Source: Akkermansia sp. (GTDB lineage Bacteria > Verrucomicrobiota > Verrucomicrobiia > Verrucomicrobiales > Akkermansiaceae). Taken from it: a stretch of 64,000 nucleotides of DNA. The number at the start of each line of letters is the position of its first letter. Position 1 is the first letter of the stretch. Of this stretch, positions 1 through 7,320 are shown in pieces. The DNA lies in the NCBI GenBank assembly GCA_017517385.1, contig JAFWZG010000040.1, forward strand, positions 1 through 64,000. The letters are read 5' to 3'. The notes beneath the pieces are model-generated. The model was not told where the DNA came from. It was given only the letters and a program-made list of their open reading frames with translations, and made no database searches. Position numbers and translations under genes: made by a program.

Positions 1-135
1 CAGTCGGGATTTCCCCTCGAACTTCCTTTCCCACGGTTTGTTACCTCCCCGCAGTTGTTCTTCAGGTCTGGGATTCCGCATCATCGCGGCTCCGCGCGGA
101 CTTTCACCGCAGTGCGCATATCGCGTCGGTCGTAC
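1..135 (-). mobile_element. 5' end of a bacterial group II intron (class C-like), cut by the window edge
   Basis: Read on the minus strand, the sequence starting GTACGACCG directly after the T-run of the flotillin terminator resembles domain I of bacterial group IIC introns. It has a near-consensus 5' end (GTGYG in the family, GTACG here), then GCGGTGAAAGTCCGC, a GACCTGAAGAACAAC-like segment, and GAGGTAACAAACC. Class C introns are known to insert just behind intrinsic terminator hairpins, which is the arrangement here. Only about 135 nt are visible, and any reverse transcriptase/maturase would lie beyond position 1. A cobalamin riboswitch shares the GGTGAAAGTCC string, but no B12 gene or second riboswitch half is seen. 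Confidence 0.62.
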
Positions 136-169
136 AAAAAAGCACCCTGCCGCAGAGTATGCAGCAGGG
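136..169 (-). terminator. Intrinsic terminator of the flotillin gene
   Basis: On the minus strand a 9-bp stem with one mismatch (145-153 with 161-169, 7-nt loop) is followed by TGC and six T (141-136). It lies 27 nt past the flotillin stop. The intron-like sequence starts immediately after the T-run. Confidence 0.85.
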
Positions 170-195
170 CGCAGCGAGAAATGCTAATGTGTATA

Positions 196-1719
196 TCAGG
201 CCTTCGCCTCATCAGAGGAAGAGGCAGCCGGGACCTCCGAGGCAGATTTACCAAGGTAGGAGGGAAGCTCCACACCAAGGCTACCGGCGAGCTCATGCAA
301 CGGCAGGGTGCCGGTAACAAGATTCTGCACAAAGCCGCCTACGCTGCCGCTCTTGTCGGTTCCCCCGCCCATGACGACCACCTTGTCGAAGGTAAGGCCA
401 CGCACGGCGCTGGCCTGAGTCTCCACAATCTTGGGCAGCTGCTCCGTGACAAGCAGGCCGGATGCAGCGCGGGCATCACCAGCGGCAGAGATAATCTGGC
501 GGAAACCATTAGCTTTAGCCTCCAGTGCCGCCTGAATGGCAGCAGCCTGACCACGGCCCACAAGCTCAAGGCCTTCACCTTCCGCCTTTTTCTTCAACAG
601 AAGAGCCTCAGCTTCACCCTTAGCAAGCTCCAGAGCAGCGTCACCCTCTGCTCTGTTGGCAATCACCAAAGCCTGAGCCTTACCTTCCTGCTCCTTCACG
701 AGCACGGCGGCCACAGCCTCGGCGGCGATTTCCTTCTTGCGCTTCTGAATCTCGGCGGCAACCAGTTCGTTCGCGGTCTGGGTGGCGCGCTCAAGTTCTG
801 CACGCTTCATTTCTGCCTCACGATTGGCGATATAACCGGCTTCTTCAGCCTTAGCAGCCTGCTCCTTCTCAGCCACTACGGCGATACGGAGAGCCTCAGC
901 CTGACGAACTTTCAGGCGGGCATTGGAATCCGCCACTTTCATCTGAGCTTCGTTATTACCTTCCACAGCGGCGGCCTGTGCCATAGCCACCTGCACAGTC
1001 TGGTCACGGAGAGCCTCCGCCTTACCGATTTCACCACGGCGGGTTTCTTCAGCCACCTTAATCATGGCATCGTTAATAGCACGGGCCGCTGCCTCCTGCC
1101 CCAGAGCAGCGATGTAACCGGAAGCATCACGAATATCCGTAATGTTCGCATTAATGAGGTACAGACCCACCTTGTGAAGTTCCACGTCCACGCCACCGGT
1201 GATGCCTTTAATGAGCTTCTCGCGGTCAGCATTGATTTCCTCAATGGTGAGGGAGGCGATTACCACACGCATCTGGCCCATGATGATTTCAGAGGCAAGG
1301 TCACGAATATCCTGACGAGTGCGGCCAAGCAGGCGGCTTGCGGCGTTCTGCATGATTTCAGGCTGGGTGCTGATACCCACAATGAAGGAGGAAGGAACGT
1401 CCACGCGGATATTCTGGCTGGAAAGAGCCCCCTTCAGCGGCACATCAATATTCAGCGGGTTCAAATCCATGAAAGCGTGGCTCTGAATAAGGGGCAGCAC
1501 GAAGGTGGCACCACCATGAATGCACTTCGCCGAGCGCCCTGCGCCCACGTTACCGTATACGATGAGAATCTTATCCGACGGGCACTTCTTATAGCGAGTG
1601 AGCAGCAATGCCACCACGGCCATGATGAAGAGCACGAAAATAATGACAACCATAATCTGACCGAATGAACCGGATTCAGATGTGGCTTTTGCCAATGTAT
1701 TAATGATGTTGGTGTCCAT
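196..1719 (-). CDS. Flotillin/SPFH-family membrane scaffold protein
   Basis: This 507-aa protein has a single N-terminal membrane segment (about residues 21-42), an SPFH/band-7 domain (about 48-230), and a long Ala/Glu-rich coiled coil (about 230-370) with repeated EAE and KAEA motifs, as in flotillins and YqiK. Such proteins oligomerise at the membrane and organise microdomains. Its start lies 14 nt behind the stop of an NfeD-like gene, and the two are commonly paired in bacteria. The pair appears to be one transcription unit read from the promoter at 2378-2407 and ended by the hairpin at 136-169. The antisense strand is open over most of the gene, which I take as a codon-bias shadow. Family assignment is firm; the cargo is unknown. 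Confidence 0.93.
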   Translation of the reverse strand: MDTNIINTLAKATSESGSFGQIMVVIIFVLFIMAVVALLLTRYKKCPSDKILIVYGNVGAGRSAKCIHGGATFVLPLIQSHAFMDLNPLNIDVPLKGALSSQNIRVDVPSSFIVGISTQPEIMQNAASRLLGRTRQDIRDLASEIIMGQMRVVIASLTIEEINADREKLIKGITGGVDVELHKVGLYLINANITDIRDASGYIAALGQEAAARAINDAMIKVAEETRRGEIGKAEALRDQTVQVAMAQAAAVEGNNEAQMKVADSNARLKVRQAEALRIAVVAEKEQAAKAEEAGYIANREAEMKRAELERATQTANELVAAEIQKRKKEIAAEAVAAVLVKEQEGKAQALVIANRAEGDAALELAKGEAEALLLKKKAEGEGLELVGRGQAAAIQAALEAKANGFRQIISAAGDARAASGLLVTEQLPKIVETQASAVRGLTFDKVVVMGGGTDKSGSVGGFVQNLVTGTLPLHELAGSLGVELPSYLGKSASEVPAASSSDEAKA

Positions 1720-4535: not shown

Positions 4536-6386
4536 TTAGAGCGCGGAAGGAATCTCCTTACCAAGCTCAGAGGCTTTACGCCCCTTACCATCACCAGCGA
4601 TGCGCTCCAGAACCACATCCTTATAACACATACCGCCAGGAATCATCGGCAATACGTGCACATCATGGGGAACCATAACATCAAGAACATACGCCTCATC
4701 CGCCTCCAGCATGCGCTTAATGGCAGCGGGGAGCTCGGAGGGCTCAACCACACGTTCACACTTAATACCAAAGCCCTGGCACAAAAGCGGATAGTTCGGG
4801 TAAAGAACTTCCGGCGTATGATGCGTGGGGTCATACGTTTCAGAAGGATCAGCAAGGAAAGTGTTAGCACGATGAGAATCGTACTTAAGGTCTTCCCATT
4901 GTACCACCATACCCAAGTGCTGATTATCAATAATGATAGACTTAATCGGCATGTGCTCGGTACGAATCGTGCCAAGCTCCTGAACGTTCATAAGGAATGA
5001 GCCGTCACCATCAATATTGATTACAGGCAGCTCCGGATAAGCCACGTGGGCACCCATTGCAGCAGGAAGTCCGTAGCCCATGGAGCCAAGACCACCGGAA
5101 GTAGAAAGGCGACGAGGCTTATTAAAACGATAGAACTGAGCGGCAAACATCTGGTGCTGACCTACACCAGTACAGATGATTGCGTCCTTACCTTCCATCT
5201 GGCGGTACAATTCCTCAATAATGGACTGCGGAGCGATTTCATGCTCACGAGCCTCATAGCAGAGAGGATAATCCTTTTTCCACTGCTCAATAAGACCAAA
5301 CCACTCAGGGCGGTTCTCCACGTCATACTGCTTGCGCTCATAACCTGCGGCTGCGAGCTTTTCATTAAGATATGCAAGGGCAGCCCCGGCATCGGCACGA
5401 ATGGCCATTTCCACCTTCTTGTTCTTATTAAGCTCAGCCGCATCATAATCAATGTGAATAATGCGAGAACGCTCACAGAAAGTCTTAACAGCACCGGTCA
5501 CACGATCGTCAAAGCGAGCACCTATTGCCAGCACAACATCGGCTTCATTCACTGCATAATTAGCATACACGGCACCGTGCATACCCAGCCAACGAACAGA
5601 AAGCGGGTGCTCTTCAGGCATAGCACCTATGCCCATCAGCGTGGTAGCCACCGGAATCTGCAAACGCTCGGCAAGCTCAAGAAGCTTATCACTAGCCTCA
5701 GCAATCACCACACCACCACCGGCATATATAGCGGGGCGCTTAGCTCCGATCAGCAAAGGAAGCACAGCTTCAAGCTTATCAGTAGGCAGAGGGAGCTCAG
5801 GCTGATATCCGGGCAAATCCATCGGCACATCAAAATCAGGCTCAAACTGACCTTCTTGGAAATTCTTAGGAATATCAATTACAACGGGCCCCGGACGACC
5901 AGTACGGGCAATATAGAAAGCCTCCTTCACAATGCGAGGAATATCCTCCAGGCGGGTTACCATATAGCTATGCTTGACAATCGGAGCAGTCATACCGAAT
6001 ACGTCAGTTTCCTGAAAAGCAGAGCTACCAATAAGGCTGCTTCCCACCTGAGCCGTAATCGCCACCATAGGAATAGAATCCAAGAAGGCATCAGCTATGG
6101 GAGTAATCATGTTCGTTGCACCCGGACCGGAAGTAGACATACAAACACCAACCTTACCCGTAACGCGACCATAACCTTCCGCAGCAAAAGCACCACCCTG
6201 TTCGTGACGAGGAAGAATAGTGCGAATAGCCGGCTCGTGACTAAGGGCCTGATGCATAGGCATACTGGCACCACCGGGATAAGCAAATACCACGTCTACA
6301 CCCTCTCTAACTAGACTCTGCACAAGGGCCTCAGCCCCGTTCATTGTTCTGCGGACAGACTGCTGATTTGTTTGGGAATCACTCAT
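4536..6386 (-). CDS. ilvB: Acetolactate synthase, large (catalytic) subunit
   Basis: About 616 aa. This ThDP- and FAD-dependent enzyme condenses two pyruvates to acetolactate, or pyruvate with 2-ketobutyrate, in branched-chain amino acid synthesis. Visible features are FAYPGGASMPMHQAL near the N-terminus, the catalytic Glu in RHEQGGAFAAEGYGR, STSGPGATN, and the C-terminal ThDP/Mg site GDGSFLMNVQEL followed by IIDNQHLGMVVQW. The start is placed at the ATG at 6386 (MSDSQTNQQ). The frame is open upstream, but that stretch overlaps the preceding terminator and lacks family sequence. No ilvN regulatory subunit is adjacent, so it must lie elsewhere or be absent. There is no clear Shine-Dalgarno motif. 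Confidence 0.95.
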   Translation of the reverse strand: MSDSQTNQQSVRRTMNGAEALVQSLVREGVDVVFAYPGGASMPMHQALSHEPAIRTILPRHEQGGAFAAEGYGRVTGKVGVCMSTSGPGATNMITPIADAFLDSIPMVAITAQVGSSLIGSSAFQETDVFGMTAPIVKHSYMVTRLEDIPRIVKEAFYIARTGRPGPVVIDIPKNFQEGQFEPDFDVPMDLPGYQPELPLPTDKLEAVLPLLIGAKRPAIYAGGGVVIAEASDKLLELAERLQIPVATTLMGIGAMPEEHPLSVRWLGMHGAVYANYAVNEADVVLAIGARFDDRVTGAVKTFCERSRIIHIDYDAAELNKNKKVEMAIRADAGAALAYLNEKLAAAGYERKQYDVENRPEWFGLIEQWKKDYPLCYEAREHEIAPQSIIEELYRQMEGKDAIICTGVGQHQMFAAQFYRFNKPRRLSTSGGLGSMGYGLPAAMGAHVAYPELPVINIDGDGSFLMNVQELGTIRTEHMPIKSIIIDNQHLGMVVQWEDLKYDSHRANTFLADPSETYDPTHHTPEVLYPNYPLLCQGFGIKCERVVEPSELPAAIKRMLEADEAYVLDVMVPHDVHVLPMIPGGMCYKDVVLERIAGDGKGRKASELGKEIPSAL

Positions 6387-6455
6387 GGCTGGTGTTACTT
6401 TTATATGATTAATACACGAGCCGGGGTTTCTACACCGGCGTACGCTCATTCTAGC

Positions 6456-6493
6456 AAAAAAAAATCTGCATGAAAAGTTTTTTTTCATGCAGA
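6456..6493 (-). terminator. Intrinsic terminator of the LysM protein gene
   Basis: On the minus strand TCTGCATGAAAA pairs perfectly with TTTTCATGCAGA (6493-6465), followed by a run of nine T. It separates the LysM gene from ilvB. Confidence 0.88.
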
Positions 6494-6528
6494 AGTGACA
6501 TCATTCCACTTTTTATATATGACAACAA

Positions 6529-7320
6529 TCATTTTTCAGAACCAGCCTCAGGGGAAAACTCATCCTCGTTGCAAATAATGGACACTCTTCCACCCACGCC
6601 CATGAGCAAAGTCAATTCGTTAAGATCTCTGGAATTCATCAATACCACCGGCGCCCCACCCCTTTGCGAGGAAACAATATGCACACCATTAGATAAGACC
6701 AAAGCCCTATCACTTATAAGGAACTGAGTAGAACGCCTAGATACCTGCGCCCCATTAACGTACCCATCTCGATGCTGCACTGTCGTCTCAGCATTCACAT
6801 CAAGCGAAAGCCGTTCAACGGATGATATATTATACGCTACCACAAACTCCTTACCATCCCACACGGTAATCTCTCTCTGAAGGGGCCGAAGCTCCACACG
6901 AAGATTCATAGGAACAACAACAAGTTGCTGCCCTGCCTTCAAATCAGAGGGTGCTACTATGCCATTGAGCAACATAATAACGTCCACCGGACACTTTGTG
7001 GCCGCAGCTATACGAGCGAGATTTTCACCACGTCGCACCACATGCGTCGTGGAACATGGATGACGCTGAGACAAATAACGGCGAACATTAATAGAACCGG
7101 AAATCTGGCGAGCTTCACGCCCGGCAATGCCGGATTCACTCACAAAGGGACGCAGCAATTCTAACGCCTCATCCAGCTTCTGCTCCCGTAACAAATTACG
7201 AGCCTGCTCCAGCTCCGCCGGGCGACGAGGCCAAAGAGAATAGTCCGACTCACCCGCCAAAACACTCAGCGAAAAACTAGATAAGACCGCGGCGCTTAAA
7301 ATCAAAGAAGTTAATGTCAT
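6529..7320 (-). CDS. Exported LysM-domain protein
   Basis: This 263-aa protein begins with a signal peptide (about residues 1-22, ending SLSVLAG). A short helical segment (about 30-65) follows, then one LysM domain (about 92-140: THVVRRGENLARIAAA...LLNG...LKAGQQLVVVP). The C-terminal beta-rich half (about 145-255) has repeated hydrophobic strands and is not recognised. LysM domains bind peptidoglycan glycan chains, so it probably acts in the periplasm. Its start lies inside the 3' end of the upstream gene (44-nt overlap), suggesting translational coupling, and its transcript ends at 6456-6493. The C-terminal half vaguely recalls L,D-transpeptidase-like context, but I see no HXX(14-17)SXGCI/V catalytic motif. 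Confidence 0.82.
   Translation of the reverse strand: MTLTSLILSAAVLSSFSLSVLAGESDYSLWPRRPAELEQARNLLREQKLDEALELLRPFVSESGIAGREARQISGSINVRRYLSQRHPCSTTHVVRRGENLARIAAATKCPVDVIMLLNGIVAPSDLKAGQQLVVVPMNLRVELRPLQREITVWDGKEFVVAYNISSVERLSLDVNAETTVQHRDGYVNGAQVSRRSTQFLISDRALVLSNGVHIVSSQRGGAPVVLMNSRDLNELTLLMGVGGRVSIICNEDEFSPEAGSEK

Follow-up and report, generated by a model that had tools for sequence, protein, structure and literature searches.

The locus behind the flotillin gene

The window, that is, the whole stretch of 64,000 nucleotides analysed here, starts at base 1 of contig C69 of a 2.66-Mb Akkermansia assembly in 157 contigs, and its first features are arranged as follows:

1–135, minus strand: 5' end of a group IIC intron, comprising the first 135 nt of domain I; it starts with G at 135 and is truncated at 1, where the contig ends
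136–141, minus strand: T6 tract of the flotillin terminator, forming the last bases of the 5' exon
142–172, minus strand: stem-loop of the intrinsic flotillin terminator, which is the target of insertion; a genus-mate (L314) has the same tail without the intron
196–1719, minus strand: flotillin/SPFH-like ORF of 507 aa (Pfam Band_7, 1.8e-24), whose terminator is occupied

Read along the minus strand, a hairpin of 13 pairs (172–142) leads into TTTTTT (141–136) and from there directly into GTACGACCGACG, whose first base, 135, opens GTACGACCGACGCGATATGCGCACTGCGGTGAAAGTCC. Intron sequence then continues to the end of the window, and only 135 nt of it are visible because the contig begins inside the intron. 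The initial annotation had put a group II intron boundary exactly behind an intrinsic terminator, and this is what the T6 tract and the adjoining intron base 135 display; the span that it gave, 1–169, does contain the start of the intron but overshoots it, 169 lying inside the terminator.

Vacant flotillin terminators were found in five genus-mate loci read (29 were fetched), and that of L314, which is free of intron, ends in GGCAGGGTGCTTTTTT like the one in the window. A BLAST comparison of 29 sibling flotillin loci with own-genome 3' flanks gave no match that pairs the window copy with its 3' half. All 135 nt of the window copy recur unchanged in a copy on contig C12 (L012), which is a short derivative (see below), and an ORF-less copy on C157 is likewise identical to it over the 95 nt present there; what is visible of the window copy is compatible with an RT-bearing intron, an ORF-less one and a short derivative alike.

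A group IIC family placed at terminators

Window bases 1–135 are almost certainly one copy of a high-copy family of group IIC (bacterial class C) intron retroelements, hereafter family A, with an RT-bearing form and an ORF-less form that would be carried in trans. Searching the genome by BLAST with window bases 1–2000 gave 32 matches, 29 of which (the window itself included) are at least 84 nt long and 92–100% identical, the other three being weaker and located on C61 and C103. Among 11 copy loci scanned with Rfam models, RF02001 (group-II-D1D4-3) was detected in five at 83–99 bits against a gathering score of 32, while RF01998 (D1D4-1) and RF00029 (Intron_gpII, domain V) each exceeded the threshold in two loci and fell below it in one; in the whole genome, RF00029 has 22 domain V matches, 18 of them over the cut-off. 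The sister copies therefore have the ribozyme domains of a group II intron, domain V included, so that the covariance-model search proposed by the initial annotation supports its group II reading through them, whereas the 135 nt of the window alone have no credible Rfam match, riboswitches included (window 1–200, up to E = 10).

Full-length introns are present in genus-mates (1,889 nt in L181, 1,887 nt in L139 and 1,888 nt in L152), and an intact family A IEP of 472 aa, free of stops, is encoded at six places in five of 59 genus genomes, 18 of which have some match to the family A RT/maturase. The protein passes TIGR04416 with 411 bits (cut-off 300), and its best match among solved structures is the GsI-IIC RT (PDB 6ar1; E 4.4e-124), from what we take to be Geobacillus stearothermophilus; to judge from the alignment, which covers residues 60–466 of the 472, there is no room for an endonuclease domain. 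The relatives thus possess a class C-type RT/maturase without endonuclease domain, a class assignment made from the profile score and the closest solved structure.

In this assembly, RVT_1 finds no match. Six contig ends nevertheless carry the last 21–22 codons of the RT, in frame, and the gene is absent from the assembly because contigs break inside the repeated intron; its absence was accordingly rejected as a biological fact, the RT being cut off by collapsed repeats and not shown to be missing from the genome. The RT and domain V that the initial annotation expected beyond position 1 were thus located in genus-mates (intact RT) and sister copies (domain V), but no intact RT is contained in this assembly. 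More generally, metagenome-assembled genomes hide such elements, since a repeated intron causes its RT gene to be lost from the assembly.

To assess the placement of family A, the 50-nt flanks of 111 distinct junctions were folded, of which this genome contributed 19 and relatives 92; four matches whose flank was short were excluded. A hairpin of −9 kcal/mol or stronger that ends within 12 nt of the intron precedes all 111 junctions; this threshold discriminates poorly, because 1,267 of 2,000 random positions also pass it. At −18 kcal/mol or stronger, 104 of the 111 junctions still have a hairpin (18/19 in this genome, 86/92 in relatives). The corresponding counts in the controls are 387 among 5,000 random positions, 79 among 1,110 Markov-shuffled versions of these flanks and nine among 109 segments taken 200 nt upstream. 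Under a stricter rule that combines a hairpin with a T-rich tail, 91 of 111 junctions qualify, compared to 95 of 2,000 random positions; the 20 that fail for their tail are still preceded by strong hairpins (−20 to −34 kcal/mol), their T tract either pairing with upstream A or being poor in T. The initial annotation had taken the arrangement at the flotillin gene as evidence in itself, class C introns being known to use terminator hairpins as insertion sites.

A second feature pointed out at that site, GTACG where GTGYG is usual, is nearly universal in family A: the 5' ends of 114 distinct junctions read GTACG in 111 cases, GTGCG in two and GGACG in one. The family thus departs from the GUGYG 5' boundary by which group II introns are recognised, which is best regarded as a widespread consensus and not as obligatory; a review describes it for the vast majority of group II introns, not for all (PMC4424553). 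A simple motif scan for GTGYG relatives in other genera of the bacterial family gave no usable match. A family that works with GUACG would allow the role of the third intron base to be tested.

At the other end of the intron, CTAC(T/A)C(G/A)AT or a sequence close to it follows the domain VI hairpin in most of the 22 domain V matches, which gives an AY boundary after a domain VI whose bulged A was read by eye from the hairpin. The 3' end of the intron probably lies at GAT/AAT, since the bulged A is then 7 nt away and the short derivatives stop there. No convincing EBS1/IBS1 pairing could be assigned from the sequences of the copies.

Family A 5' ends occur in 28 of the 59 genus genomes, and a pattern scan of named genomes located at least 92 stretches; among the matches listed, nearly all printed titles name MAGs of Akkermansia or Akkermansiaceae, for many of which the source is the gut of goat, sheep or buffalo, while a few are labelled uncultured bacterium and one Clostridia. 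The latter (L179, 6961–7015) consists of 55 nt from a family A 5' end, situated behind a terminator, and reflects either misbinning of the contig or transfer from one phylum to another. Taken as a whole, these data document that class C introns have heavily invaded the genomes of gut Akkermansia.

RT-bearing, ORF-less and shortened copies

Classified by the sequence that precedes domain V, the 22 ends in this genome comprise 14 ORF-less and six RT-bearing introns as well as two that belong to a second family, B. The ORF-less intron, reconstructed as a composite of the window copy and the one on C157, measures 650 nt. Its domain I is ~93–96% identical to that of the RT form over 290 nt, whereas BLAST detects no similarity between its internal region and the RT-bearing intron; this region is found in 20 of the 59 genus genomes and has 13 matches in this one. 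A plausible fold can be drawn for the middle of the ORF-less form, with four of 88 pairs changing on both sides and a slightly unfavourable covariation term, and covariation was consequently not retained as support for it. The excess of ORF-less ends in this genome fits mobilisation in trans, and the two forms would represent a natural class IIC driver/passenger pair, in which the RT-bearing intron measures 1.9 kb and the ORF-less one, here the more numerous, 650 nt. Domain I itself has a variant, in which ~80 nt of extra sequence are inserted near intron nucleotide 81 (L172, L166, L134, L094 and others).

Considerably shorter copies also exist, two of 153 nt in this genome (C41 and C12) and one of 240 nt in a relative (G171, contig C51). 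All three extend from the 5' end to CGAACAG(A/G)AACT and pass directly into CGAT and the 3' exon, and a fourth copy with the same joint, whose 5' end is off the contig, is found in G169 (contig C7). In copies with the short domain I the joint connects nucleotide 149, and in those with the longer one the equivalent position, to the last bases CGAT of the intron; it falls at an ACT that is common to domain I and the presumed branch site and includes the presumed branch-site A. Allowing up to two mismatches, the pattern occurs at 23 places in 76 genus genomes, with the joint in four, undeleted GCAT in 18 and another sequence in one, counts that lean towards short copies because these are easier to assemble. 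The short derivatives have different domain I backgrounds, with and without the ~80-nt insert, which argues for more than one origin. Other deletions are present too, among them one on C91 that lies at a repeated ACGAACA.

A tentative and, on balance, doubtful explanation for the recurring joint is that reverse transcription begun on the branched lariat left the short derivatives behind as its footprints: having copied the few bases that precede the branch, the RT would stall there and jump to a base-matched spot in domain I, and class C introns would in this way shed non-autonomous mini-copies at terminators. Group II RTs are reported to switch templates in vitro, also to internal intron regions (PMC3280974), and class IIC introns to form lariats with their own IEP (PMC7161350). 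The same joint would also result from simple deletion between microhomologies. If the joint does mark the branch site, the mini-copies would be a record of natural lariat reverse transcription.

The only GIIM matches in this assembly, on C33 and C139, were considered as a standalone maturase domain, a candidate that was rejected when they turned out to belong to two internally deleted group IIC introns of family B, of which the full form exists in G011. These copies (L053, C33:22103–22631, and L054, C139:7103–7631) are 98% identical and lie at different terminators but share the same joint, from nucleotide 58 to nucleotide 1426 of the full form, and keep a 147-codon frame with the maturase GIIM domain. 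The full-length family B intron (L365, G011 contig C25) starts with GTACG behind a hairpin and has its own RT, which is 60% identical to that of family A. On C33, the copy occupies the terminator of a 1035-aa ORF, by eye an autotransporter-like surface protein with many ISNNGDVAFSGNYA-type repeats; on C139, the region just upstream of the intron (6100–7035) encodes what was named by eye a preprotein-translocase-like C-terminus with a long ETPAPAVE repeat array.

Competing readings, proposed cycle and known systems

Several other readings of the locus were weighed against a family A intron. That it is a dead remnant, of a family that moved once and whose copies, including the one in the window, are now decayed fragments, is unlikely: several copies are indeed internally deleted or truncated and the assembly lacks an intact RT, but the 5' ends within the genome have remained 92–100% identical, five of the 59 genus genomes retain intact RT frames and, in this genome itself, six contig ends preserve the end of the RT in frame. 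Misjoining of repeats at contig ends, suggested by the location of most copies at such ends with ~135–150 nt of shared sequence, has next to no probability and is already refuted by interior copies, since junctions of this kind are also seen in those on C41, C12 and C75; full copies are moreover found inside contigs of other assemblies, and collapsed repeats, although they yield contig ends and explain the missing RT, do not explain the junctions. A cobalamin-type riboswitch, which the initial annotation had itself raised as the alternative, or another leader RNA has as its one argument the resemblance of the GGTGAAAGTCC motif to such an RNA and is likewise extremely improbable, considering that window 1–200 gave no match to a B12-type riboswitch up to E = 10, that group II models score far above threshold in the sister copies and that the element stands behind terminators, not ahead of genes.

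For the family A intron, established knowledge of class C introns provides the outline of a cycle. The intron RNA would splice out and remain bound to its own RT/maturase as an RNP, which would recognise the hairpin and T tract of an intrinsic terminator as DNA; the intron would then reverse-splice at the terminator and be copied into DNA. Because the IEP has no endonuclease domain, this copying is probably primed by replication. The 1.9-kb RT-bearing form would provide the protein, and the 650-nt ORF-less form would be mobilised in trans.

In kind, the element is an ordinary one with variant features, as class C introns directly behind intrinsic terminators are a known arrangement (PMC8919778). 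Less usual are the family-wide GUACG end, the joint that recurs among the mini-copies and, in this genome, the dominance of ORF-less copies; a literature search, with most subscription journals outside its coverage, found no report of family A or of such mini-copies. Family A shares with known group IIC introns the group II domains and the terminator-hairpin placement (PMC8919778, PMC4424553), its copies lying directly behind terminator hairpins, as well as a short IEP that ends after the thumb/DNA-binding part; unlike them, it begins with GUACG instead of GUGYG at 111 of 114 junctions, and its ORF-less ends outnumber the RT-bearing ones in this genome. The solved protein closest to its IEP, the GsI-IIC RT, comes from a different host and resembles it at the level of sequence.

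The closest precedent for an ORF-less majority is offered by the TeI3/TeI4 introns of Thermosynechococcus elongatus, which are not known to belong to the class C introns that target terminators. According to a review, bacteria rarely have ORF-less introns (PMC4424553), and T. elongatus is reported to have 28 introns, 17 of them ORF-less, driven by a few IEPs (PMC2882425). High copy number, an excess of ORF-less over RT-bearing copies and action in trans, which in family A we infer, are thus common to both systems (PMC2882425); the ORF-less forms of T. elongatus, however, keep remnants of the ORF ends, whereas the internal region of the ORF-less form in family A has no BLAST similarity to the RT form.
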